From Rhodanobacter fulvus Jip2 (GTDB lineage: Bacteria > Pseudomonadota > Gammaproteobacteria > Xanthomonadales > Rhodanobacteraceae): DNA of 64,000 nucleotides. Both the position numbers and the translations under genes were made by a program. The stretch lies in the NCBI RefSeq assembly GCF_000264315.1, contig NZ_AJXU01000030.1:1-64000 (forward strand), written 5' to 3'. Within the stretch, counting starts at the first letter, position 1. Every line of letters begins with the position of its first letter. The notes under the pieces were generated by a model. It did no database searches. It was not told the DNA's origin and saw only the letters and a list, made by a program, of their open reading frames with translations. Positions 51,208 through 64,000 of the stretch are shown one piece after another.

Positions 51208-51897
51208 TCAGCGCCCCTCGTCGCGGTGCCGGCGGTGCGGCGCATCCGATGCAGGCATCGACCGTGAGGTCGGCAAATGCCAGCCATGCCGGATCGCCAT
51301 GAAACGCAGCGCGAAGCAGACGCCGCCGCCGGCCACGGCAGCCAGCATCGGCGAGAGGTGCAGCAGGTGTGCGCTCACCACCACACCGGCACCGGCCAGC
51401 GCCGCCAGCGCGTACAGGTCGGCGCGCAGCACGGTGGGGATGTCGGATACCAGCACGTCGCGCAGCATGCCGCCGCCGATACCTGTCACCATGCCCAGCA
51501 GGGCCGCCATCACCGGATCGATGCCGTGGGCCAGCGCCTTCTGCGCGCCGGCTACGGCAAAGAACGCCAGCCCGACCGCATCCAGCCACCGCACGTCATT
51601 GCGCAGGCGGTTGGTCATCGGGTACCAGAGGAAGGTGATCAACCCGGCCAGCGCGGACACGCCCGCATACGTCAGGCCGGCAATCGCCGCCGGCGGCACC
51701 GCGCCGATCATCAGGTCGCGCGTGATGCCGCCCGCATTGCCCGCCGCGAACGCCAGCACCAGCACGCCGAAGATGTCGAGCCGGTGCCTGACCGCGACCA
51801 TCGCACCGCTGATGGCGAAGACGAAGGTGCCGCCCAGATCCAACACCTGCAGCAGGATCGGCAGCATGGCCTGGGTGGCGAAGGTCGCGTGCGCCAT
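51208..51897 (-). CDS. TRIC-family (UPF0126/YadS) membrane protein
   Basis: A 229-residue protein with seven predicted helices arranged as two repeats. Each repeat carries the family glycine-rich motif (NAGGITRDLM, GIGGGMLRDVL). Prokaryotic homologues form trimeric potassium channels. The C-terminus is hydrophilic and His/Arg-rich. It starts 3 bp from the M20 gene stop in the minus-strand run. The 188 bp downstream (51020-51207) show no gene. Confidence 0.9.
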   Translation of the reverse strand: MAHATFATQAMLPILLQVLDLGGTFVFAISGAMVAVRHRLDIFGVLVLAFAAGNAGGITRDLMIGAVPPAAIAGLTYAGVSALAGLITFLWYPMTNRLRNDVRWLDAVGLAFFAVAGAQKALAHGIDPVMAALLGMVTGIGGGMLRDVLVSDIPTVLRADLYALAALAGAGVVVSAHLLHLSPMLAAVAGGGVCFALRFMAIRHGWHLPTSRSMPASDAPHRRHRDEGR

Positions 51898-51900
51898 CGT

Positions 51901-53175
51901 TCAGCGTGCTGCCGACAGCCACGCCCGCGCGGCCACCATCAGCGTTTCCACGCCGACCTCCAGGGTGGGGTGAAGTACCGGCAGGAAACGCGGGTTGTGG
52001 TTGGTCGGGATTTCATTGAGCCGGTTCTCGACCTTCGCCTTCGCGTAGGCGTCCGGGTCGGTGCCGCCGACGAACCAGAATACCGACGGCACCTTCCACT
52101 CGGCGCCGAACGAGCCGAAATCCTCGCTGGCCGAGGTGGGCCCGGTCTCGCGGATGCGCCCGGCAGGGAAGTGCTTGCGGAACGCATCGACCACCCTGGT
52201 GGTGGCGTCGTCGTCGTTGGTCACCAGCGAATAGTTGTCCAGCGGCGTGATTTCCGGCGGTTTCGTCGCACCCGAGGCCGCGGCCTCGGCGTTGACGATG
52301 CGGGTGATGGCGGCCAGTACGCGCTTGCGCACGCCCTCGTCGAAGGTGCGCACGTTGAGCTTGATGACGGCCTCGTCGGGGATCACGTTCTCCTTGGTAC
52401 CGGCCTGCAGCGAACCGATGGTGAGCACGGCCGCCTCGGTCGGCGCCAGCTCGCGGGAGACGATGGTCTGCAGCCGCAGCACCGTCGACGCCGCCATCAC
52501 CACCGGGTCGATGCTGGCCTGCGGCATCGAGCCGTGCGCGCCGCGCCCGAACAACCGAATCTGCAGGCTGTCGGCGGCGGAGGTGATCACGCCCTTGCGC
52601 CCGCCGATGGCGCCGGCCGGGCCCACCATCACGTGCTGGCCCAGTACCACGTCGGGTTTCGGAAAGCGCTGGAACAGGCCGTCGTCGATCATTGCCTGCG
52701 CGCCTTGCGCGGTTTCCTCCGCCGGCTGGAACACCGCCATCAGCGTGCCCTTCCAGCTGTCCCGATGCTGCGCCATCAGCGTGGTGGCGCCGACCAGCCA
52801 GGCAACATGCATGTCGTGGCCGCAGGCGTGCATCACCGGCACGGTGTTGCCTTCGTGGTCGACCGCCGTGACCTTGCTGGCATACGCCGCGCCCGTCGCT
52901 TCCTGCACCGGCAGTGCATCCATGTCCGCGCGCAGCATCACCACCGGCCCGTCGCCATTGCGCAACAGGCCAACCACGCCGGTCTTGCCGACGCCGGTGC
53001 TGACTTCATAGCCGGCCGCGCGCAGGTGCTCGGCGGCCAGGCCCGCGGTGCGGGTTTCCTGCATCGACAGTTCCGGATGCGCGTGGATGTCGGTGTACAG
53101 CGCCTCCAGCCGCGGCAGCAGCGCGCGGAGGTGGTCTTGCAGCGTTTCGTCGGAAGGGGTGGGTTTGTCATTCAT
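51901..53175 (-). CDS. M20-family amidohydrolase/peptidase
   Basis: A 424-residue M20D metallopeptidase of the hippurate hydrolase/aminoacylase/carboxypeptidase group. Motifs are LRADMDALPV, MHACGHDMHVAW (Cys/His/Asp metal ligands), QPAEETAQGA and SASEDFG. The TNHNPRF segment is near the C-terminus. No signal peptide is seen, so it acts in the cytoplasm. Substrates of the family are N-acyl amino acids or small peptides. The 272 bp upstream (53176-53447) hold nothing I can identify. Confidence 0.9.
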   Translation of the reverse strand: MNDKPTPSDETLQDHLRALLPRLEALYTDIHAHPELSMQETRTAGLAAEHLRAAGYEVSTGVGKTGVVGLLRNGDGPVVMLRADMDALPVQEATGAAYASKVTAVDHEGNTVPVMHACGHDMHVAWLVGATTLMAQHRDSWKGTLMAVFQPAEETAQGAQAMIDDGLFQRFPKPDVVLGQHVMVGPAGAIGGRKGVITSAADSLQIRLFGRGAHGSMPQASIDPVVMAASTVLRLQTIVSRELAPTEAAVLTIGSLQAGTKENVIPDEAVIKLNVRTFDEGVRKRVLAAITRIVNAEAAASGATKPPEITPLDNYSLVTNDDDATTRVVDAFRKHFPAGRIRETGPTSASEDFGSFGAEWKVPSVFWFVGGTDPDAYAKAKVENRLNEIPTNHNPRFLPVLHPTLEVGVETLMVAARAWLSAAR

Positions 53176-53447: not shown

Positions 53448-54704
53448 CTACAACAGATCGGGCGCTGGCGCGGTGTCGTTGCGCGACTGCCGTGCCACCA
53501 CGCTGGTGGCGGTGAGGTCGCCGGTGACGTTGCCCAGCGTGGCCAGCGCATCGGGGATGGTGTCGACGGCCAGCATCAGGCCCAGCGGACTCAGTGGCAG
53601 GCCCATTGCCTGCGCCACCGGAAGGTTGGTGGCGATGAACGTGACCTGGCCCGGCAGGCCCACCGAACCCAGGCTCACCACCACCGCCAGCAGCGCACCA
53701 GCGATAAGTTGGGCGGTGGACAGATCCACGCCGTAGGCCCAGGCGATGAACGCGGCGGAGGTCATGTATTGCACCGGGCTGGTGAGGCGGAACAAGGTGA
53801 CTGCCATCGGCAGCACCAGGCCGGCTACCGCCTTCGGATACCCCAGCCGGCGATCGGCGCTTTCCAGCATCGCCGGCAGCGAGGCCAGCGACGACTGCGT
53901 GCTGATCGCCACCACCTGCGCGGGTACCAGCGCCAGCGCGAAACGGCGCCAGCGCTCGCCACCAAAACCCACCGCCAGCGGCAGCATCATCACGGTAACC
54001 GACAGGTACAGTAGGCACTCGACCAGCACGTACACGCCCAGCGCGCTGAGCATGCCCAGGCCCGACCGCGCGCACACCGACAGAATCAGCGCGAACACAC
54101 CCAGCGGCGCCGCCCACAACACCCAGCGCACGATCACGATCATCGCGTCGGCGATCGCCTGGAAGAAATCCAGCAACAGCGCGCGGCGCTCCACCGGCAG
54201 ATGGGTGAGCGCAAAACCCAGGAACAACGCGAACACCACCAGCGGCAGCATCGCGCTTTGCGCCGCGGCCATGATCGCGTTGTGCGGAACGATGGCGGTG
54301 AGCGCATCCACCCAGTCGACCGGCGCGGCTTGCGCCGCCGCGGGCAACGCGGCGTGGCCCAGCGCGGCGGTCAAGGCCGGATCGTGCGCAAACAGCGAGA
54401 ACACGAACGGCGCGGCGAACGCGGCGAACAGCGCGCCGCCGGTCAGCACCACGATGAACACCACGATGGCGCGTCGCGCGATGCGGCCTGATGCCGCCGC
54501 ATCGCTGGCGGTGTTGACGCCCAGCACCACCAGCGCCAGCACCAGCGGCACCACCGTCATCTGCAATGCGTTCAACCACAGCTTGCCGATCGGCTGCACC
54601 ACATGGGCCACCTGGATGGCCAATGCAGGATGCCAAGCCGCCAGCCCCAGGCCGATCACCGCGCCGGCGGCGAGGCCGGTCAGCACGCGGGCAGTGGCAT
54701 TCAC
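53448..54704 (-). CDS. SDF-family (GltP/DctA-like) cation symporter, divergent
   Basis: A 418-residue inner-membrane secondary transporter of the dicarboxylate/amino acid:cation symporter family. The serine-rich hairpin-1 tip is recognisable (AISTQSSLASLPAML). The C-terminal motif is DTIPDALATLGNVTGD (from residue 381). Relative to GltPh, Arg397 is replaced by Ala388, and the NMDGT motif reads FRLTS (305-309). This argues against glutamate or dicarboxylate transport as in GltP/DctA. The GTG start at 54704 overlaps the upstream L,D-transpeptidase stop (GTGA), with GGAG upstream. Confidence 0.85.
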   Translation of the reverse strand: MNATARVLTGLAAGAVIGLGLAAWHPALAIQVAHVVQPIGKLWLNALQMTVVPLVLALVVLGVNTASDAAASGRIARRAIVVFIVVLTGGALFAAFAAPFVFSLFAHDPALTAALGHAALPAAAQAAPVDWVDALTAIVPHNAIMAAAQSAMLPLVVFALFLGFALTHLPVERRALLLDFFQAIADAMIVIVRWVLWAAPLGVFALILSVCARSGLGMLSALGVYVLVECLLYLSVTVMMLPLAVGFGGERWRRFALALVPAQVVAISTQSSLASLPAMLESADRRLGYPKAVAGLVLPMAVTLFRLTSPVQYMTSAAFIAWAYGVDLSTAQLIAGALLAVVVSLGSVGLPGQVTFIATNLPVAQAMGLPLSPLGLMLAVDTIPDALATLGNVTGDLTATSVVARQSRNDTAPAPDLL

Positions 54705-55468
54705 CGCGCCTCCCCGGCGGCAAGCGCCGGCAAGCGCCAGCTTGAACGCAGACGCTGATACTCGGCCTGTGGCAGCAACACGAAGACCGGCATGTCGCGC
54801 GGCTTCAACCAGGCCAGCAACGATTGCATTACCGCCGGCGTCATCGCGGTGCAGCCGGCGGTGGACGACGTGGGCGATTTCCACAGGTGGGCGAAGATGC
54901 AGCTGCCGGCCTGCGGTATGGCATCGGGGTTGTGTTCAATCACGAAGCCGAGGCGGTAGCGCTGGTCGCCCTTGAAATGGAGGTCGCGGCGCATCGGTTC
55001 GCTGGCGCCTTTCACCGCCGCGACGCCCACCACCTTCGCGTCGACGATGCGGTTGTATTGGGGCGAACTGCTGACATCGACGCACCAATCGCTGGCGGTC
55101 AGCGCGCGGTACGGCATGGCGGTGTCGGCGTGGGCCGTGTAGCCGAAGACCTCTCCGATGCGGAACACACCGGCCGGGCTGCGGTTGTCGCCCTCGCGCT
55201 TGGATGGGCCGGCTGTTTGTTCCGGATGCAGGCCGATGCCCCAGCCCGCGCCAGCCTTGCCGATGGTCACCGGTACGCCGGTATTCACCGGTTGCCACTG
55301 GCTGCCCTTGCGTTCGAAGGTGCGCAGCGTGCCGTGGTCGGCGTTCCAGTCGGCGGTGGTCACCACGATCATCTGGCGGGCGTCATGCCAGGGAACGCGC
55401 GACGTGTCGGCATGACCCGCACCGATGAGGGCGAACGCAAGAACGACCGGCAGGGAAAAGTGGCGCAT
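54701..55468 (-). CDS. YkuD-family L,D-transpeptidase-like protein
   Basis: A 255-residue exported protein with signal peptide LPVVLAFALIGAGHA. The YkuD catalytic motif is present as HLWKSPTSSTAGC, with His194 and the nucleophile Cys206. Family members cross-link or cleave murein stem peptides in the periplasm. It is translationally coupled to the SDF transporter gene. The REP composite at 55493-55613 lies directly upstream. Confidence 0.88.
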   Translation of the reverse strand: MRHFSLPVVLAFALIGAGHADTSRVPWHDARQMIVVTTADWNADHGTLRTFERKGSQWQPVNTGVPVTIGKAGAGWGIGLHPEQTAGPSKREGDNRSPAGVFRIGEVFGYTAHADTAMPYRALTASDWCVDVSSSPQYNRIVDAKVVGVAAVKGASEPMRRDLHFKGDQRYRLGFVIEHNPDAIPQAGSCIFAHLWKSPTSSTAGCTAMTPAVMQSLLAWLKPRDMPVFVLLPQAEYQRLRSSWRLPALAAGEAR

Positions 55469-55492
55469 GGGCTACGGGGACCTCGCACGAAG

Positions 55493-55613
55493 GAACCCCT
55501 CTCCCTCTGGGAGAGGGGCAGGGGTGAGGGTTCGGTGATTCCGCGCATTCGGCTCCGCCCGAACCCTCTCCCCAACCCCTCTCCCGGAGGGAGAGGGGCT
55601 CAAGCGGAGGGTT
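55493..55613. repeat. Composite CCCTCTCCC-family palindrome, copy D
   Basis: The left unit CTCCCTCTGGGAG ... GAGGGTTCGG faces the right unit CCGAACCCTCTCCCCAACCC ... CTCCCGGAGGGAG around a 22-bp centre, with the same composite design as 23354-23472. It separates the L,D-transpeptidase gene from the RpiR gene, both on minus. Confidence 0.85.
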
Positions 55614-55637
55614 CGCGGGGATATATGGACGGCCAAA

Positions 55638-56495
55638 TCAAGGCTCCAGCATCAACTGGATGCGATCCAGGTTGGCCAGCAATTGCGCGTGGCGGTCATC
55701 GTGGCCTTCGCACAGCAAGACGAACAAGCCATCGAGCAGATGCTGCAGCGCCGACTGGTACAGCAGCGGCTGGATGTACGGCAGCTCGTCATGCGCCGAC
55801 ACCACCAGCGCGATGTCGGCCAGCGTGCGCAGCGGGTTGGCGGTGTGCCGCGTCACCGTGATTACCTGACCGCGGCGCTCACGGAAGTAGCGCGCGATCT
55901 TGCACAGTGCCGGATGGTTGCCGTGCTCGGAGAACACCAGCAGCACGTCGCCCGCGGTGGCAGCCGAAATGTTGGCGGTCATACGCGCGGTGTCGAAGTT
56001 GTGCACGGTGAGGATGCCCAGCAGCGACAATTTCAGCGCGAAGCCGCGCGCGTAGATGTCGTCCTCGCCCAGACCGATGATGAACACCTTGCCGCTCTGG
56101 CCGGCCTGGCCGATGGCGGCGGCGACGGCCTCGATGGTCTCGGCCGGATTGATCAGCCGGGTGGCCTCCTCGGCTTCCGACTTGCGCCGCCACAGGTTGC
56201 CGGCGAAGGCGCCGGGCGACCCGCCATCGGGCGATGCAGCATGTTCCGGTGCATCGCCATTGTCGGCGCGGGCGTTGGCCTCGCCCACGGAATACTTCAG
56301 GTCGGGATAGCCCTTGAAGCCCAGCTTCTGGGTGAACTTCACCACGCTGGACTGGCTGATGCCCAGGGCATTGGCCAGTTGCTGCGAGGAGTAATCGCGC
56401 AGCAGCTGCGCGTTCTCCAGGATGAAGTCGGCAATGCGCCGCTCCACCGCCGACATCCGGTCGCGTTCGGAGCGGATTTTCACCAGCGGCGACAT
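55638..56495 (-). CDS. MurR/RpiR-family regulator with altered SIS site
   Basis: A 285-residue transcription factor. The N-terminal RpiR helix-turn-helix (SAVERRIADFILENA, LGISQSSVVKFTQKLGFKGY) is followed by a SIS domain from about 120. In SIS proteins that bind phosphosugars, Ser/Thr lines two loops; here they read GLGEDD (141-146) and FSEHGN (188-193). A phosphosugar ligand is therefore doubtful. Its ATG overlaps the epimerase stop by one base, so it is co-translated with epimerase and probably responds to murein peptides (inference). Confidence 0.88.
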   Translation of the reverse strand: MSPLVKIRSERDRMSAVERRIADFILENAQLLRDYSSQQLANALGISQSSVVKFTQKLGFKGYPDLKYSVGEANARADNGDAPEHAASPDGGSPGAFAGNLWRRKSEAEEATRLINPAETIEAVAAAIGQAGQSGKVFIIGLGEDDIYARGFALKLSLLGILTVHNFDTARMTANISAATAGDVLLVFSEHGNHPALCKIARYFRERRGQVITVTRHTANPLRTLADIALVVSAHDELPYIQPLLYQSALQHLLDGLFVLLCEGHDDRHAQLLANLDRIQLMLEP

Positions 56496-57592
56496 CAGGC
56501 TTCGATCTCCTCCAATCCCCTGATCTCGCGGATACCCAGGCCGGGCGCGTCCGTCACCGAGATCTCCGATTCGTTGAAGATTACCCCACCGTCGACCGGG
56601 TTGAACTGCGACAGCGATGGCCCGTCCAGGTCGATCTTGGTGATCACGCTGGACTTGGCTACCGCCACGTGCACGGCGGCGGCCACGCTGATGCTGCTTT
56701 CCAGCATGCAGCCGATCATGCATTCCACGCCGTACATCGCGGCGATGTCGGCGATCTTCACCGCGTTGGAGATGCCGCCGGTTTTCATCAGCTTGATGTT
56801 GATGATGTCGGCCGCGCGCAGCCGGATCAGCTCGATCACTTCCATCGGGCCGAACACGCTTTCGTCGGCCATCACCGGCGTGTGCACGCGCTCGGTCACG
56901 TAGCGCATGCCGGCCAGGTCGCGCGCCTTCACCGGCTGCTCGATCAGCTCCAGCTTGATGCCGGCGTCCTCCAGCGTCTGCAGCGCGTAGACCGCCTGTT
57001 TGGCCGTCCATCCCTGATTCGCATCCAGACGCAGCAGGGCGCGCCCTTCCACCGCCGCGTAGATCGCCTTGACCCGGTCGATGTCGACGCCGATGTCCTT
57101 GCCGACCTTGATCTTCAGCGACTCGAAGCCGCGCTCCACCGCCTCCACGGAGTCGGCCACCATCTTGTCGATGTAGTCCACGCTGATGGTGATGTCGGTG
57201 GTGATCACCGGGTCGCCGCCGCCCAGCAGCTTGTACAGCGGCGCGCCGTAGAGCTGGCCCCACAGGTCGTACACGGCGATTTCCACCGCCGCCTTGGCGC
57301 TGGTGTTCTTCTCCATCGCGCCCTGGATCAGCTGGGTGAGGTGGTTGAGGTCGGCGATGTCCTGGCCGATCAGGCGCGGCGAGATGTAGTGGCGGATTGC
57401 GTCGATGATCGAGCCGTGCGTGTCGCCGGTGATCACCGCGGTGGCCGGTGCTTCGCCGTAACCGACGTTGCCGCTGTCGGTGTGCACCATCACCACGATG
57501 TCCTCGACCATGTTGACGGTGCGCAACGCGGTCTTGAACGGTGTTTTCAGCGGCACCCGCAACATGCCGAACCGGATGTCGGTGATTTTCAT
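56495..57592 (-). CDS. L-Ala-D/L-Glu epimerase (dipeptide epimerase)
   Basis: An enolase-superfamily enzyme of the muconate-lactonizing subgroup, 365 residues. Catalytic Lys residues are K160/K162 (LKIKVG) and K267 (NIKLMK). Metal ligands are D190 (LRLDANQG), E218 (LIEQP) and D243 (MADES). It matches AEE/YkfB enzymes, which epimerise L-Ala-D-Glu released from murein to L-Ala-L-Glu. The neighbouring NlpC/P60 peptidase 49 bp upstream supports this. Other dipeptide specificities are possible. Confidence 0.88.
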   Translation of the reverse strand: MKITDIRFGMLRVPLKTPFKTALRTVNMVEDIVVMVHTDSGNVGYGEAPATAVITGDTHGSIIDAIRHYISPRLIGQDIADLNHLTQLIQGAMEKNTSAKAAVEIAVYDLWGQLYGAPLYKLLGGGDPVITTDITISVDYIDKMVADSVEAVERGFESLKIKVGKDIGVDIDRVKAIYAAVEGRALLRLDANQGWTAKQAVYALQTLEDAGIKLELIEQPVKARDLAGMRYVTERVHTPVMADESVFGPMEVIELIRLRAADIINIKLMKTGGISNAVKIADIAAMYGVECMIGCMLESSISVAAAVHVAVAKSSVITKIDLDGPSLSQFNPVDGGVIFNESEISVTDAPGLGIREIRGLEEIEA

Positions 57593-57641
57593 GGGAGAGC
57601 CTTCATGGGAATCCGTGTCCTTCTTTCTTCTTGCGGGTAGT

Positions 57642-59045
57642 TCAATCGCGGATACGCACGATGCTGGTCATGCGGTCGACGAAGGTCTGCTTGTCGTTGA
57701 ACAGCAGCGGCAGCAGCGGCGTCACCGATACCGCGTTGAGCTTGACGCGCACCTTGCTGCCGTCGGCCTTGCGGTAGCTCATGCCGCCCACGTCGTGGAT
57801 CACGTACGGCTGGCCGTTGAACTGGCCCAGCACCATCATCACGTGGCCGGGGATGTAGACCAGGTCGCCCGTCTGCAGCGCGTACGCCGCGGCGATGCGC
57901 TCCTGGCGGCTGTCCTTGTCGGTGAACACGCGATGCGCCAACGCCGGGCTGATCGCCTGCTTGCTGGTGTTGCGCGGCATCTGCACGCCCATGCTGCGAT
58001 AGACGTCCGACACGAAACCGCTGCAGTCGCGGCCATCGTAGGCGTGGCCCCAGCCGTAGCGCTCGCCAAGGAATTTGAACGCCTGGCGGATCAGGTTGGC
58101 GCGGGTCAACGGCAGATAGTCGGCGGCGGTATCGGTGTTCTTCTGCAGCAGCGCGGGAGCGAATTGCAGCTTGCCGGCGGCGTCGCGCAGCGGCAGTTCC
58201 AGCACGTGCGAGGTGTACGGCGTCTGCCCGTTCACCGGCTGGTCCGGCGGCAGGTCGGTCTGCAGCGGCACGCGCGTGCCCATGTCCAGTTGCAGTTGCG
58301 ACAGCGCGGGCTGTTCGCGGGTGAATACGGTGCGCACGCTGGCGCCCGTCACCACGCGATACGGTTTCTTGTCGGCATAACCGAACACTTGCGCCGCGCT
58401 GCCTTCGGCCACGTTCTCCTTCTCGGTCCACGCCGCATAGCGGGGGCTGACCACGAACAGCCACTGGCCGTCCGCGCTGGTGTGCGCGATCACCAGCGGC
58501 GTGCCGGGAAACTCCGCAGTCTCCTGGAAGCGGTCGATATCGGTGTCGTCGTCAGAACTGAACACCCGCAACGTGGTGGGGAAGCCGCGCAACGCGGCGC
58601 GGCGCACCACCAGCCCGTAGCGGGTTTTCTGTTGCGGGGGAATCGCCCCCAGCGCCGCGTTATCGGCCACCGCCTGCAGCGTGGCGGCGGACACCGGCTT
58701 GCCGTGCACGTCGTACAGCGGATGCGTGGGCAGGGTGGACAACGGCTTGATCCAGCCGAGCACGCGATCGCGATCCAGCGTGGGCGGCAGCGCACGCAGG
58801 TCGTGCATCGACGGATCGAGCTGCAGCAGCTTCGCGTTCTGCGCCGCGATCGCTGCGGGATCGAGAATCACGCGGTCCGGTTGCGCCTGCAGGCCGATCC
58901 AGAACGCGGGCGTCAGTTGCGCCTCGCCCACGTCCAGCACGCCCGAGGGCGGCACGGCGAGAGTGGCCGGCGCCTGGCGCGCCGGCGCGGGCGCAGCGGC
59001 CAAGGCAAGCGTCAGCAGCGAGGCAAAAATGAAGGTCAATCGCAT
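57642..59045 (-). CDS. Exported NlpC/P60 peptidase with SH3-like domains
   Basis: A 467-residue protein with signal peptide (FIFASLLTLALAAAPAPA). About 270 residues of SH3-type wall-binding region follow, then a C-terminal NlpC/P60 catalytic domain: Cys341 (DCSGF), His401 (PGHVMMVLG) and His417 (VIHDVGG). It resembles YkfC-type gamma-D-glutamyl-L-diamino-acid endopeptidases, which release L-Ala-D-Glu. Here it is exported, so cleavage would be periplasmic. It lies between the DUF819 gene and the epimerase gene on minus. Confidence 0.88.
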   Translation of the reverse strand: MRLTFIFASLLTLALAAAPAPARQAPATLAVPPSGVLDVGEAQLTPAFWIGLQAQPDRVILDPAAIAAQNAKLLQLDPSMHDLRALPPTLDRDRVLGWIKPLSTLPTHPLYDVHGKPVSAATLQAVADNAALGAIPPQQKTRYGLVVRRAALRGFPTTLRVFSSDDDTDIDRFQETAEFPGTPLVIAHTSADGQWLFVVSPRYAAWTEKENVAEGSAAQVFGYADKKPYRVVTGASVRTVFTREQPALSQLQLDMGTRVPLQTDLPPDQPVNGQTPYTSHVLELPLRDAAGKLQFAPALLQKNTDTAADYLPLTRANLIRQAFKFLGERYGWGHAYDGRDCSGFVSDVYRSMGVQMPRNTSKQAISPALAHRVFTDKDSRQERIAAAYALQTGDLVYIPGHVMMVLGQFNGQPYVIHDVGGMSYRKADGSKVRVKLNAVSVTPLLPLLFNDKQTFVDRMTSIVRIRD

Positions 59046-59066
59046 GATCCGGGTCCTCTACAACGT

Positions 59067-60218
59067 TCAACCGAGCGCCATCATCGACATCAGGTGCGCC
59101 ACCACGATGCCGAAGCCGGTGCCGAGGATATAGCCCAGCAAGGCCAGCAAAATTCCCACCGGCACCAGCGATTTCGAATAGCTGGCCGCAAGGATCGGCG
59201 TGGCCGCTACGCCGCCAATATGCGCCAGCGAGGCGATGCCGCACAGGAACAGATCGAAGCGGAACAGCTTGGCGAAACCCACCAGCAGCACCGCGTGGAT
59301 CGCGATGACGGTGACGCCGCACAGCAGATACAACGGCGCGGCGCCGATGCCATGGAAATTGCTCTGCGAGGCCAGCACCGCCACCACGCTGATCAGCAGC
59401 GCGCCGGAAATCGTGCCCGCGCCGGGGTAGCGCGCCAGCGGCGTATGCGCCACCACCAGGCCTGCCGCGGTGGCCAGCAGAATCGTCCAGGTGGTGGCGC
59501 TGAGCATGCTCGACACCGGCAGTTTCGTGGCCAGCCAGCCGGCCAGCGCCGCAGCCAGCAAGGCCATGCCCAGCCACAGCAGCACGCTCTCCGGCGTGGT
59601 CGGCCCGGTCGGCTTCGCCTCGGCCACCACCAGATCGCCGCTGGATTTGGCGCGCGTCCAGCGGTTGAATGCGGGCGCCAGCCGCGCCACCGAAAACAGC
59701 ACCACCACCCACATCGAGTAGCACAGCGCATCGGTCAGCAGCGACATCGCCAGCAGCGCGTCCGACATGCCGATCGCCTGCTTCACCGCGATCATGTTGG
59801 CGGTCCCGCCCACCCAACTGCCACTGAGCGCGCCCAGCGGTTGCCAGGTGTCACCCGGAAGCCAGCCGCGATAGATCAGGAAGGTGCCGATGAAGGCCAC
59901 GAACAGGCTCACCGAGGTGCAGGCGAACACGGCCAGCACGCGCGGCCCCAATGCCCAGATGGCCCGCAGATCGCAATTGATCATCAGCAGAAACAGCAGC
60001 GCCGGCACCAGCCGCGACACCAGCATTGATTGCGCCGCATGGATCTGCGCGTTGACCTGCCACAGCCCCGACACCGCCAGCGCGGTCACCAACAAATAGG
60101 TCAGCACGATCGGCGGCAGCACCGAGAAAACCTTCCAGCCCGTGCGCCGTTCGATCGCCGGAAACAGGCCGGCAGCCAACAGCATCACCGCCAGGTAGGG
60201 CCAGACCGTCTGGATCAC
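59067..60218 (-). CDS. DUF819 family membrane protein
   Basis: A 383-residue integral membrane protein with about ten hydrophobic segments. It matches DUF819 (YjcL-like), for which no transport substrate is established. Glycine-rich motifs (GSWVGGTANMIAVKQAIG; ASLAHIGGVAATPILA) in the two halves suggest an inverted-repeat transporter. It heads the minus-strand run DUF819-NlpC/P60-epimerase-RpiR and is a candidate importer of L-Ala-D-Glu or a similar peptide (inference). Confidence 0.85.
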   Translation of the reverse strand: MIQTVWPYLAVMLLAAGLFPAIERRTGWKVFSVLPPIVLTYLLVTALAVSGLWQVNAQIHAAQSMLVSRLVPALLFLLMINCDLRAIWALGPRVLAVFACTSVSLFVAFIGTFLIYRGWLPGDTWQPLGALSGSWVGGTANMIAVKQAIGMSDALLAMSLLTDALCYSMWVVVLFSVARLAPAFNRWTRAKSSGDLVVAEAKPTGPTTPESVLLWLGMALLAAALAGWLATKLPVSSMLSATTWTILLATAAGLVVAHTPLARYPGAGTISGALLISVVAVLASQSNFHGIGAAPLYLLCGVTVIAIHAVLLVGFAKLFRFDLFLCGIASLAHIGGVAATPILAASYSKSLVPVGILLALLGYILGTGFGIVVAHLMSMMALG

Positions 60219-60384
60219 ATGCGTCCCCTTGTGGACCGTTCGCCGATGCGCGGCAACGGGCCGGTTTGCGCCGCCAAGGAATAGGTGATTCTTTTCAATT
60301 GCAATCGAAGCATAAATTATTGACCAGCATTTGCAAGCGTGTTACACAGCCGCATCTGGGGTCTTCATGGCGGGGGATGGCGCG

Positions 60385-61980
60385 ATGCACTCACGGTTAC
60401 CTGTCGCAGTGAAATCACGTGGGCGGCGTCTGGCGCTGGCGCTGCTGGCGCTATTGTTCGCCGGCCCGCTGCAGGCCGGCTCGCAGGATGACAACCGCGC
60501 CGTGGCGCCCATCATCGCGCAGATCGACGCCGGGCATTTCCACGAGGCGCAGGCGGCGATCGACCGCGCGCTGGCCCAGCCGCAGCTTTCCGCCGACGCG
60601 CGGCGCGCGCTGGCGTTCCAGCGCGAACGCATGCGCCGCATCCTGCTCGATTTCACCCTCGACGCCGACGACGTCGAGGCGCGCGTGCGCAAGCAGATCC
60701 CCGACCTCACCGACGCCGAGTTCGCCAGGTGGAACGCGGCCGGACTGTTCGAGCACCAGGTCATCGACGGCCGCACGCTGTACTTCAAGCGCTCGCCGGG
60801 CAACCTGTTCCACCTCAGCGACGAGGCGGTGGCGCGGCGCGCGGTGCAGGCGCCGAGCACCGATGGCCCGATGGAATCGCTGAACGACGCGCAGCGGGCG
60901 ATCTACCACGCCGCGCTGGCCGAACACCGCAGCAGCGTGCTGCCGCGCCGCGTGCGGATGACGCAAACGCTTACCGTGGATGCCGACGCCGTGCCCGCCG
61001 GTGAAACCGTGCGGGCGTGGATTCCCTACCCGCAGGCGGTGCCGGGCCAGCAGCAGGACATCCGCTACATCGCCAGCGTGCCGGCGCAGCATCGCATCGC
61101 GCCCGCGTCCGCCCTGCAGCGCACGGTGTACCTGGAGCAGCCCGCGGTGGCGGGCAAGAAGACCGAGTTCTCGGTGACCTACGAGTTGACCCTGTTTGCC
61201 CAGTACCACGCCATCGACCCGGCCAGGGTAACGCCGCTCTCCGCCGCCAGCGCGGAAGCCGTGCAGTGCCGTGATGGTCACGACGATGCGGCGCCCTGCT
61301 CCATCTTCCCCGTCCACGGCACGACCCACGCGGAGACCGAACTGGCGCCGTACCTGGCCGAGCGTCCGCCGCACATCGTGTTCACCGACGCGATGCGCGC
61401 GTTCTCGCGCAAGGTCGTTGGCGACGAGAAGAACCCGTACCACATCGCGCAGAAACTGTTCGCGGCGGTCGACAGGATTCCCTGGGCCGGCGCGCGCGAG
61501 TACTTCACCATCAGCAACATCAGCGACTACGCGCTGCACGCCGGCCACGCCGATTGCGGCCAGCAGACCCTGCTGCTGATGACCCTGCTGCGGCTCAACG
61601 GCATCCCCACGCGCTGGCAGTCGGGCATGGTGTTTTCCGACGACGGCAGCTACAGCAACATCCACGACTGGGGCTACCTGTACCTGGCGCCGTACGGCTG
61701 GGTGCCGATGGACGTGACCACCGGCCAGCTGCAGCCGGGCCCCGCCGACGACCAGGCGCTGGCGTGGTTCTACCTCGGCGGGCTCGATGCCAACCGCATC
61801 GCCTTCAACAACGATTACGGCCGCACGTTCGTGCCGCCGAAGCAGCATTTCCGTTCCGACAATGTGGATTCCCAGCGCGGCGAAGTGGAGTGGGACGGGG
61901 GCAACCTCTACTACGGCCAGTGGGATTACGGCTTCGATTGGCAGATCCAGGCAGCGACGCAGGGACGCAGAAGCAACTAA
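60385..61980 (+). CDS. Exported transglutaminase-like domain protein
   Basis: A 531-residue protein with signal peptide (LALALLALLFAGPLQA). Its transglutaminase-like core has the triad Cys391 (HADCGQQT), His427 (SNIHDWG) and Asp443 (PMDVTTG). ATG 60385 has GGGGGA upstream; an ATG at 60367 is also possible. Such domains are often proteases or peptide-modifying enzymes. It is divergent from the DUF819 gene and 50 bp before the TonB-dependent receptor gene, likely in one transcript. The target is unknown. Confidence 0.85.
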   Translation: MHSRLPVAVKSRGRRLALALLALLFAGPLQAGSQDDNRAVAPIIAQIDAGHFHEAQAAIDRALAQPQLSADARRALAFQRERMRRILLDFTLDADDVEARVRKQIPDLTDAEFARWNAAGLFEHQVIDGRTLYFKRSPGNLFHLSDEAVARRAVQAPSTDGPMESLNDAQRAIYHAALAEHRSSVLPRRVRMTQTLTVDADAVPAGETVRAWIPYPQAVPGQQQDIRYIASVPAQHRIAPASALQRTVYLEQPAVAGKKTEFSVTYELTLFAQYHAIDPARVTPLSAASAEAVQCRDGHDDAAPCSIFPVHGTTHAETELAPYLAERPPHIVFTDAMRAFSRKVVGDEKNPYHIAQKLFAAVDRIPWAGAREYFTISNISDYALHAGHADCGQQTLLLMTLLRLNGIPTRWQSGMVFSDDGSYSNIHDWGYLYLAPYGWVPMDVTTGQLQPGPADDQALAWFYLGGLDANRIAFNNDYGRTFVPPKQHFRSDNVDSQRGEVEWDGGNLYYGQWDYGFDWQIQAATQGRRSN

Positions 61981-62030: not shown

Positions 62031-64000
62031 ATGAACAGCAACAACCGCAAGCTACGCAGGACCGTGCTGTGCATGGCGCTGGGCCTTGGCCTGGCGTCGC
62101 TGGCCGTGCCGGCCGCCTTTGCCGGCAGCAACGACGGTTCCGTGGTGGGCCATACCGCCGCCGGTGCCGTGATCACGGTGAACAACACCGCCACCGGCTT
62201 CACCCGCTCGGTCACCGCCGACGCCAAGGGCAACTACCGCTTCCCGTTCCTGCCGGTGGGCACCTATACGCTGGAGAGCAGCAAGGACGGCGCACCGGTG
62301 GGGCACGCGGTGAATGTCACCGTGAGCCTGGGCAATGCCACCACCGTCAACGTGGGCGGCGCGAGCGACGCGACGGCGCTGGAAGCGATCAGCGTCAGCG
62401 GCACCATCCTGCCCGGGGTGGACGTGAGTTCCACCGAATCGGCCACCAATGTCACCCGCGAGCAGTTGAGCCGTATCCCGGTGGACCAGAACATCACCTC
62501 GGTGGCGATCCTGGCGCCGGGCGTGAACCGTGGCGTGGCTGGTTTCGGCGGCATCTCCTTCGGCGGCTCGTCGGTGGCGGAGAACTCGTTCTACGTCAAC
62601 GGCCTCAATGTCACCGACTTCTACAACCGCAACGGCTTCTCCTCGGCGCCGTTCGCGTTCTACCAGGAGTTCCAGGTCAAGACCGGCGGCTACTCGGTGG
62701 AGTTCGGCCGCACCACCGGCGGCGTGATCAACGCGGTGACGCGCACGGGCACCAACGACTTCCACTTCGGCACCGAGACGACGCTGGAGCCCGGCAACTG
62801 GCACTCGCGCGCCGACGACCACTACCGCGCCGACGGCACCCGCTACCTCACCGCCGGCAAGGACCGCGACTCGCTGGTCAAGCTCAACGGCTATGTGTCC
62901 GGCCCGATCGTCAAGGACAAGCTGTTCTTCTTCGCGATGTACGAGGCGCGCGGCGCCACCCCGCGCAACACCAACGACGACGGCACCGTGCTCACCAGCA
63001 ACGGCTCGGACACCGGCTTCTGGGGCGCCACCATCGACTGGCACGTCAACGACAGCAACCTGCTCAGCGCCATGGCGTTCTCCGACAAGGACAAGAACGT
63101 CGGCGACGTCTACGACTACGACTACGAAAACCAGCAGCTGGGCGGCAAGACCAACGAGATCTATACCGACACCGGCGGCAAGAACTGGGCCCTCACTTGG
63201 ACCAGCTACCTCACCAACGACTTGTCGATGAAGCTGATGTACGGCCGCAACAACCGCGAATCGTTCAACCGCGGCCTCAGCGATCTGGAGTGCAACCGCG
63301 TGGCCACTGACGGCGACATCCCGCTGCCGGGCATCGGCCTGGGCTGCACCACCAATTCCCTGGTGAGCAAGCGCAACGACGTGCGCAAGCAGGCGCGCGC
63401 CGATTTCGAATGGACGCTGGGTGACCACCTGCTGCGCTTCGGCTACGACAGCGAGAAGAACACCTCCGACTACGACCGCTATTACCCGGGCCCCGGCGCG
63501 CTCTACTACAACGTCTACCAGGCGGCGCCCGGCTCATCGATCTCCAACCCCAGCGGCGGCGTGGTGCCGGCCGGCTACACCGGCTACGTGCGCGCCCGCC
63601 GCTACGAAATCTCCGGCACGTTCGAAACCACCAACTCCGCCTACTACATCGAGGACAACTGGCAGGTCACGCCCAACGTGCTGTTGAACCTGGGCCTGCG
63701 CCGCGACGGCTTCGACAACAAGACCGGCGACGGCGACAGCTACATCAAGATGGACAACATGATCGCGCCGCGGCTGGGCTTTTCATGGGACATGCACGGC
63801 GACGGCACCACCAAGCTGTTCGGCAACCTGGGCCGTTACTACCTGCCGGTGGCCAACGTGATCAACATCAAGCAGGCCGGCGGCCTGCTGGACGAGCGCA
63901 CGTACTACGCGTTCGACGGCTGGCAAACACTGGACCGCAACGGCTCGCCCTACGCGATGCCGATCCTGGGCCCGCAACTGGGCGGCGTGGATGTGTCGCA
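62031..64000 (+). CDS. TonB-dependent receptor with carboxypeptidase-like domain (Oar-like), partial
   Basis: The open frame from ATG 62031 (AGAAGG upstream) runs off the window at 656 codons. A signal peptide (LGLGLASLAVPAAFA) is followed by a CarboxypepD_reg-like beta-sandwich (GAVITVNNTATGFTRSVTAD, YRFPFLPVGTYTLE). A plug domain follows (LSRIPVDQNITSVAILAPGV, YSVEFGRTTGGVINAVTRTG), then barrel strands. This is the Oar-like architecture common in Xanthomonadales. It imports an unknown ligand across the outer membrane. The gene pairs with the transglutaminase gene and faces the murein-peptide genes. Confidence 0.93.
   Translation, partial: MNSNNRKLRRTVLCMALGLGLASLAVPAAFAGSNDGSVVGHTAAGAVITVNNTATGFTRSVTADAKGNYRFPFLPVGTYTLESSKDGAPVGHAVNVTVSLGNATTVNVGGASDATALEAISVSGTILPGVDVSSTESATNVTREQLSRIPVDQNITSVAILAPGVNRGVAGFGGISFGGSSVAENSFYVNGLNVTDFYNRNGFSSAPFAFYQEFQVKTGGYSVEFGRTTGGVINAVTRTGTNDFHFGTETTLEPGNWHSRADDHYRADGTRYLTAGKDRDSLVKLNGYVSGPIVKDKLFFFAMYEARGATPRNTNDDGTVLTSNGSDTGFWGATIDWHVNDSNLLSAMAFSDKDKNVGDVYDYDYENQQLGGKTNEIYTDTGGKNWALTWTSYLTNDLSMKLMYGRNNRESFNRGLSDLECNRVATDGDIPLPGIGLGCTTNSLVSKRNDVRKQARADFEWTLGDHLLRFGYDSEKNTSDYDRYYPGPGALYYNVYQAAPGSSISNPSGGVVPAGYTGYVRARRYEISGTFETTNSAYYIEDNWQVTPNVLLNLGLRRDGFDNKTGDGDSYIKMDNMIAPRLGFSWDMHGDGTTKLFGNLGRYYLPVANVINIKQAGGLLDERTYYAFDGWQTLDRNGSPYAMPILGPQLGGVDVS

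Follow-up and report, generated by a model that had tools for sequence, protein, structure and literature searches.

A conserved gene cluster of Rhodanobacter fulvus and its relatives as a candidate scavenging pathway for murein peptides, with a DUF819 permease as putative importer

How might peptides of bacterial murein be taken up and used by a Gram-negative bacterium? The question is raised by a gene cluster of Rhodanobacter fulvus Jip2, in which genes for a DUF819 permease, an NlpC/P60 peptidase, a dipeptide epimerase, an RpiR-type regulator, a YkuD-type protein and an SDF transporter lie together, divergent from genes for a transglutaminase-like protein and a TonB-dependent receptor. The cluster occupies the last part of the window, that is, the whole stretch of 64,000 nucleotides that was analysed (contig NZ_AJXU01000030.1, from a genome of 3.88 Mb), and runs on past its end. 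An earlier note on this DNA had listed these families as clustered, with the last two divergent, and all of them were recovered with Pfam profiles; genes past the window end, a diaminopimelate (DAP) decarboxylase of relatives and a shared promoter element lay beyond its view. Gene content, gene order, conservation, this element and predicted folds are the grounds on which activities, substrates, locations and regulatory links are proposed below, and they lead us to consider it probable that the locus serves, under its own regulation, to scavenge peptides of bacterial murein, derived most likely from other bacteria. Murein-peptide salvage as such is strongly supported by the conserved context.

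Families were assigned with Pfam and NCBIfam profiles, open reading frame coordinates were refined by a codon-based gene call, signal-peptide-like N-termini were judged by eye, without a dedicated program, and genome searches were confined to the phylum of the window. A search of named genomes with the epimerase yielded at least 387 confirmed relatives among at least 596 pattern matches, the best 80 of which were kept (the 80 named loci). Most of these belong to genera that we take to be Lysobacterales, including Lysobacter and Stenotrophomonas, and four come, by the same assumed assignment, from outside the order (Pseudidiomarina, Alkalimonas and, twice, Lacimicrobium); the nearest of the 80 is that of Rhodanobacter sp. 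Root480, with an epimerase 99% identical. The NlpC/P60 gene directly precedes the epimerase in 77 of the 80 and the RpiR gene directly follows it in 76. Since flanks extend over at most 9 kb and some contigs end sooner, counts of outer genes are lower bounds: anywhere in the loci we found YkuD in 66, transglutaminase and TonB receptor in 65 each, SDF in 54, serine hydrolase in 48, LysA in 33, M15 in 31, DUF819 in 28, DAO in 16, M19 in 15, APC and amidase in 11 each and NhaC in 3. In a congeneric set of 19 loci fetched around DUF819, which has at least four genomes in common with the named loci, DUF819, NlpC/P60, epimerase, RpiR, SDF and transglutaminase keep an identical order in all 19, and the TonB receptor adjoins the transglutaminase in 18. 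The earlier note had named a lack of conserved clustering as grounds for giving up its reading; the clustering is instead far above chance. A genus set of 36 genomes comprises 21 with the cluster and 15 without, the cluster epimerase being present in 21 and DUF819 in 20. A plasmid search for close relatives of DUF819 and NlpC/P60 returned 5 and 25 records, respectively, all below 60% identity, and of three plasmid regions inspected, H6 and H4 have no epimerase among the annotated genes and H1 is unannotated.

With 49% identity to the Bacillus subtilis enzyme (1jpm), the epimerase conserves R24, K160 and K162 (KxK), and D321 and D323 (DxD), the roles of which (Arg24, active-site Lys/Asp/Glu, DxD) we presume to be those of that enzyme. 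From this similarity and these residues we infer an L-Ala-D/L-Glu epimerase of the YkfB type. In the NlpC/P60 protein, Y330, W332, D340, C341 and H401 are present in 85 of 85 aligned sequences and S342 in 79 (Thr in 6); the catalytic Cys/His, the Tyr and Trp of the gamma-D-Glu site and the DCS motif are the features by which the accessible part of one paper delimits the YkfC subfamily, in which Asp256 is said to neutralise the free amine of L-Ala (PMC2954226). At the place of Asp256, located by its distance from the catalytic motif, which is equal in both, 84 of 85 sequences have Asn359 and one has Asp; the Asn would lead one to expect that a blocked L-Ala terminus is accepted. The protein is related to that subfamily and does not belong to it. 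Among solved structures 3m1u is its best relative; an SH3_6 domain was found, and the alignment to YkfC stops short of the region of Tyr118 in SH3b1. We propose that it acts as a gamma-D-Glu-diamino acid endopeptidase.

For the YkuD-type protein, in which His194 and Gly205-Cys206 are conserved in at least 95% of 73 sequences, we propose an L,D-carboxypeptidase/transpeptidase-like step. An L,D-carboxypeptidase role would fit the arrangement in one locus (L177), where a gene of the S66 L,D-carboxypeptidase type, recognised by Pfam, follows the epimerase; a protein of equal length, known by its length alone, holds the same place in L178. The L177 cluster, in which no DUF819 gene was called over the fetched stretch, also encodes an alanine racemase, an APC-like permease and a pair of small membrane proteins of the 'Gate' (nucleoside recognition) type. 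The transglutaminase-like protein has Cys383, His419 and Asp435 invariant in 42 sequences, and its match in Foldseek to the putative cysteine protease 3isr (Z 19.9), which barely covers the helical N-terminal part, indicates a protease-like fold and no substrate. The regulator has the RpiR domains and stays below the cut-off of the MurR model NF012026 (85 of 408 bits).

The transporter at the head of the operon is a DUF819 permease, a family reportedly also named in a cotton study. The model of the R. fulvus protein (63 sequences) has a predicted local distance difference score (pLDDT) of 90.4 and a predicted template-modelling score (pTM) of 0.86, and matches both CitS (Z 26.4, root-mean-square deviation 4.2, 362 residues) and AspT (Z 25.3, deviation 3.8, 350 residues) over the full length; the match to NHA2 is clearly weaker (Z 13.5). 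The best Foldseek E value for the model is 1.9e-5. In a tree of 64 DUF819 rows, 30 form one clade (support 100/98) with no murein-unlinked row, made up of 28 cluster or DUF819-epimerase rows together with two loci that extend the context. In L155, from a second gammaproteobacterial family, the order is DUF819-NlpC/P60-epimerase-YkuD-SSF-kinase-MurQ-NamZ, the kinase scoring under its NCBIfam cut-off, and in L168 NamZ, a MurQ-like gene, SSF and alanine racemase lie near DUF819. As a fresh test, 59 genomes of the second family were searched with the L155 DUF819, which gave eight matches, seven of them new. By tblastn, six of these seven loci, all outside the order, carry murein genes in the fetched stretch (L195 with matches to S66 and LysA only), as against none of 27 control loci with DUF819 of the general type, 23 of them placed by the tree and four (L057, L058, L064, L151) by best match only. 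The seventh, L192, close to a contig end, had no tblastn murein match; with Pfam, applied after the count and not to the control loci, both L192 and L195 show an Amidase_2 gene. On the 0 of 27, a link of DUF819 as a whole to murein was rejected. L056 had been moved out of the control (28 to 27), as it belongs to the L052 branch, and L054 was left out of it; in the gene-call version, which missed DUF819 itself in four loci, every gene of the murein set is absent from the L052-type branch (L052, L053, L056), and L053 has an M19 gene nearby, outside the set counted.

A distant DUF819 clade, with long branches and unsure inner branching, scores by tblastn in four of eight loci. Only the match in L154, which has an M19 gene, a serine hydrolase and an epimerase-like gene, is of epimerase type, and the three others (L068, L069, L172) are DgcA-like: they score 430-454 of 480 bits for DgcN and 392.5-400.2 of 400 for DgcA, near or at the cut-offs, and these two are enzymes of D-Glu breakdown. 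The clade-specific context and the carboxylate/amino-acid-transporter fold thus support a role for the cluster-type DUF819 as a putative transporter of murein products. A wider proposal is possible, although we give it somewhat less than an even chance: DUF819 proteins would be elevator transporters with clades for D-Glu-bearing murein products, the cluster clade, found in the RpiR-controlled regulon of Lysobacterales and in N-acetylmuramic acid (MurNAc)/murein operons of the second family, importing L-Ala-D-Glu after periplasmic digestion, and the distant clade importing D-Glu for DgcN-DgcA. So far as their accessible parts go, two papers touch on the family and assign it no substrate: one models DUF819 on CitS (5a1s) (PMC8396727), and the other reports that M15 and DUF819 are paired in 75 of 128 genomes of Neisseria meningitidis (PMC12671195).

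The place of the transporter is filled variously in the 80 named loci, by SDF alone in 29, DUF819 and SDF in 24, APC alone in 10, DUF819 alone in 3, NhaC in 3 and APC, DUF819 and SDF together in one. DUF819 is therefore optional and cannot be the sole import route across the order. Outside the order, an antiporter-like permease of the NhaC family is encoded within or close to loci of the epimerase or of DUF819 (L131, L147, L148, L195, L199) and is perhaps another transporter of murein products. Of 59 SDF sequences, 57 have Ala and two have Cys at the position of GltPh Arg397, placed by eye, all 59 keep the backbone-site Asp and Asn, and the window protein reads FRLTS instead of NMDGT; assuming that Arg397 holds the side-chain carboxylate and that NMDGT, the motif on which we rest the alignment, has its usual role, the protein lacks the residue expected of a GltPh-like transporter of acidic substrates. 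We propose that it imports DAP, D-Ala or a neutral amino acid. DAP is suggested by the company it keeps. Of the 80 loci, 70 have a transglutaminase or TonB gene before the epimerase and ten have neither; six of the 70, with cut flanks, were set aside. In the remaining 64, where both flanks can be seen, SDF occurs in all 32 loci that have a standalone LysA and in 17 of the 32 that have none (p 7e-6, uncorrected for kinship), and DUF819 in 21 of 32 and 5 of 32, respectively; as LysA goes with both transporters, descent may explain part of these associations. The LysA copy of L033, the only one scanned, exceeds the TIGR01048 cut-off (473.8 of 297.9 bits), and within the genus a copy at 70% identity or more turns up in 19 of the 21 cluster genomes and in 1 of the 15 others (Fisher p 4e-7), with no such copy in R. 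fulvus itself (best 38%) or in G001. A second DAP-decarboxylase-like match (36-41%) exists in 34 of the 36 genus genomes, in 33 of these within open frames of 810-1382 amino acids, the two genomes without it being 89% complete. It is presumably a bifunctional aspartate kinase-DAP decarboxylase, the model of which also matches the LysA query, and given this second gene the standalone LysA looks accessory and catabolic.

Regulation is addressed by the divergent intergenic region, which was cut from 90 loci, the window included. The inner 10-mer AATAATTTAT is present, in either orientation, in 86 of them, with near variants in the other four; GTGTA[A/G]CA stands upstream of site 1 in 75, and site 2 (GAAT-N5-ATTC) in 50, at constant spacing in all 50, where about 0.16 would be expected from the loci's own background. 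Within the genus, every one of the 21 cluster genomes has a single exact copy of the core 13-mer of site 1, GTCAATAATTTAT, whereas the 15 without the cluster have none; the 13-mer is also found in three genomes of another family, about 2 kb or less from the epimerase, and once elsewhere (G043), while its backward control gave one match in 60 genomes. The two-site element is conserved and tied to the locus, and we infer that RpiR binds it. GTAACA-18-AATAAT is also promoter-like (a scan gave 2 matches against 1.1 expected), so that the element may serve both as promoter and as operator. One congener (L174, genome G003) keeps the epimerase and the 13-mer, and DUF819, NlpC/P60 and the TonB receptor are gone from the locus; there the epimerase directly follows the promoter.

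In the pathway that we propose, murein fragments would be brought in and trimmed by the TonB receptor and by the enzymes that the divergent arm is thought to export, namely the transglutaminase-like protease, the M19 dipeptidase, the AmpH-like serine hydrolase, the VanX-like M15 protein and the AmiD/AmpD-like amidase. In the periplasm, the YkuD protein, acting as an L,D-carboxypeptidase, and the NlpC/P60 peptidase would cleave the bond that joins D-Glu to meso-DAP in the stem peptide, with L-Ala-D-Glu, DAP and D-Ala as products. DUF819, of the elevator type, would import L-Ala-D-Glu or a related D-Glu compound, and the cytosolic epimerase would turn L-Ala-D-Glu into L-Ala-L-Glu for ordinary dipeptidases. 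The SDF protein, or an APC permease in some other species, would import one of the amino acids released, probably DAP or D-Ala, a standalone LysA, where present, would convert DAP to lysine, and RpiR would control the divergent promoter through the two-site element.

Several observations weigh against this scheme. The epimerase stays under the NCBIfam equivalog cut-offs of NF041118 and NF011708 (253 of 500 and 106 of 343 bits), and the downstream genes likewise under those for AmpH, VanX and AmpD, the M15 gene reaching 182.5 of 320 and 104.6 of 176 bits with the VanX/DdpX models. Ten of the 80 named loci, five of them contig-cut (<12 kb) and five not, have none of the four transporter types, which leaves import unexplained there; DUF819 is absent from 52 of the 80, and its CitS/AspT-like predicted fold leaves the substrate unfixed. 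Related species, moreover, are not independent. In a sample of 398 genomes, all 11 with the epimerase (E<=1e-60) also carry DUF819, which exceeds its cut-off in 33, and the two genes lie close together in just three of the 11 (G000, G269, G404); phylum-wide co-occurrence is weak, because six of the 11 represent one family and eight have the genes on separate contigs or hundreds of kb apart. The reading of the earlier note, salvage with unfamiliar transporters, is supported in part: salvage by the conserved context, and the part of DUF819 by clade context and fold; peptidase export had already been proposed in print, and DUF819 is optional among the named loci.

Most of the 80 loci have epimerase and NlpC/P60 but no DUF819, which would also fit an arrangement in which DUF819 carries either free D-Glu, released outside the cytosol by M19 or some other exported dipeptidase, or a different product, and a separate dipeptide importer feeds the epimerase. 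The DgcN/DgcA neighbours of the distant clade, enzymes of D-Glu itself, and the exported-type signal that the cluster M19 shows by eye point the same way, but the epimerase requires a cytosolic dipeptide and DUF819 directly precedes it in L119, L143 and L198; we regard this arrangement as unlikely, if worth keeping in mind. The dipeptide epimerase fold spans several specificities, and on that ground the enzyme might act on other dipeptides and the cluster digest ordinary dipeptides or poly-gamma-glutamate. With residues that match the B. subtilis enzyme, with an amidase, a VanX-like M15 and NlpC/P60 alongside, and with MurQ, NamZ, a kinase and S66 accompanying it in other genomes, this seems very improbable.

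Whether the murein would be the cell's own is a separate matter, for all of the chemistry suits own murein, and a periplasmic peptidase with an inner-membrane importer would be enough to recycle turnover products. Against this, all 36 genomes of the genus have an AmpG (TIGR00901) match, which exceeds the cut-off in 35 and is a fragment in the other, a genome 79% complete, whereas the cluster is patchy, with the epimerase in 21; classical recycling is therefore independent of the cluster, and an S66 gene lies elsewhere in the R. fulvus genome. This independence, the many exported-type hydrolases and the TonB receptor favour scavenging on top of normal recycling, and the accessory LysA suggests catabolism, so that recycling as the purpose of the cluster appears distinctly unlikely. 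Least of all do we credit the neighbours with being several unrelated operons held together by descent: synteny across the order can be inherited and gene presence tracks related species, yet related gene sets are differently arranged in another family (L155, L193, L196, L198) and the genes are present or absent jointly within a single genus.

Table 1. Features of the cluster and its promoter region; positions above 64,000 are contig positions past the window end.
Feature	Position	Strand	Remarks
SDF-family amino-acid transporter	53448..54704	-	PF00375, 267 bits
YkuD-type protein, putatively exported	54701..55468	-	PF03734, 29.7 bits
RpiR-family regulator	55638..56495	-	HTH_6 + SIS
L-Ala-D/L-Glu (dipeptide) epimerase, enolase superfamily, predicted cytosolic	56495..57592	-	MR_MLE N/C
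SH3b-NlpC/P60 cysteine peptidase, putatively exported	57642..59045	-	SH3_6 + NLPC_P60
DUF819 permease, first operon gene	59067..60218	-	PF05684, 256 bits (cut-off 27)
Site 2, GAAT-N5-ATTC, 30 bases after site 1	60279..60291	-	position read off the sequence
Site 1, GTCAATAATTTAT, core 13-mer of promoter/operator element	60312..60324	-	
Transglutaminase-like cysteine protease, putatively exported	60409..61980	+	PF01841 (Transglut_core)
Oar-type TonB-dependent receptor	62031..64000, runs on to contig 65087	+	plug, barrel, CarboxypepD_reg domains
M19 dipeptidase	contig 65227-66429, past window		Pfam; exported-type signal by eye
Serine hydrolase	contig 66548-68107, past window		best NCBIfam model AmpH, under cut-off
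VanX-like M15	contig 68263-68967, past window		Pfam M15; under NCBIfam VanX/DdpX cut-offs
Amidase_2 protein, lipobox-like N-terminus	contig 69027-69797, past window		best NCBIfam model AmpD, under cut-off

The minus-strand genes, read in the order DUF819, NlpC/P60, epimerase, RpiR, YkuD, SDF, have operon-like junctions (Table 1): 21 bases separate DUF819 from NlpC/P60 and 49 bases NlpC/P60, taken from the ATG at 59045, from the epimerase; epimerase and RpiR share one base, RpiR and YkuD are 169 bases apart, and YkuD and SDF overlap. The SDF start is likely to be 54704 instead of 54884, which gives a 4-base overlap with YkuD, and that of the transglutaminase likely 60409. N-termini resembling signal peptides were seen on NlpC/P60, YkuD and the transglutaminase, and none on the epimerase. 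An M20 amidohydrolase and a Gly_transporter-domain gene downstream of SDF (51208-53175) were rejected as cluster members, each occurring in one of the 80 named loci; as a pair they are common only to the window and L070. The gap between RpiR and YkuD (55469-55637) contains a REP-like inverted repeat, CCCCTCTCCC/GGGAGAGGGG, parts of which recur in a few other loci.

In the literature covered, mostly titles and the beginnings of abstracts, with subscription papers and preprints largely outside, no description of this cluster, of a DUF819 substrate or of the element was found, and the Xanthomonas and Lysobacter studies, to the extent of their accessible text, deal with other genes (XAC4296, mltB). 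Alternative murein synthesis by MurD2/MurL, as outlined in the accessible part of PMC8788868, was left aside as an explanation of the epimerase. Land plants carry L-Ala-D/L-Glu epimerases of bacterial origin, according to the available portion of PMC3605383. The YkfB-YkfC pairing is known; the transporter, the regulon and the element appear to be new, and within the literature covered we know of no earlier non-ABC, non-AmpG importer dedicated to the murein dipeptide. The proposal gives a testable function to DUF819, a transporter family without an assigned one, and points to an apparently large, conserved murein-peptide regulon in soil Gram-negative bacteria, including Lysobacter and Stenotrophomonas. 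If true, periplasmic digestion of murein peptides with import of the dipeptide would run parallel to AmpG, and it could matter for bacteria that feed on bacteria.

Among known systems, as described in the accessible part of PMC2954226, the ykfABC(D) genes of B. subtilis with dppB-E also place an epimerase beside an NlpC/P60 peptidase. Here, by contrast, the peptidase is putatively exported, YkuD lies nearby instead of the LD-carboxypeptidase YkfA, DUF819 and SDF stand in place of an ABC transporter, and a TonB arm and RpiR are added. Closer in logic are the YkfB and YkfC of Bacillus cereus, with an exported NlpC/P60 peptidase and a cytosolic epimerase, for which breakdown outside the cell and import of L-Ala-D-Glu have already been proposed; an OppA-like gene lies nearby there, and the accessible text of the same paper reports no such cluster (PMC2954226), whereas the Rhodanobacter peptidase has no equivalent of Asp256. 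The MpaA/YcjG route of Escherichia coli shares the end, L-Ala-D-Glu being epimerised and split (PMC2954226, accessible part), but cuts the tripeptide with MpaA, unrelated to NlpC/P60; the AmpG gene of the Rhodanobacter genome sits away from the cluster. Catabolic operons for MurNAc (MurT/MurK/MurQ type, NamZ) are approached in the second family, where cluster-type DUF819 stands beside SSF, a BcrAD kinase, MurQ and NamZ; queries with MurQ, NamZ, kinase and SSF gave no tblastn match in the window or in contig positions 60.0-79.9 kb. The D-glutamate pathway of DgcN-DgcA appears in three distant-clade DUF819 loci, and both its enzymes and its DUF819 clade differ from those of the cluster. Finally, CitS and AspT resemble the DUF819 model in fold over its full length, yet share with it only 11-12% identity.

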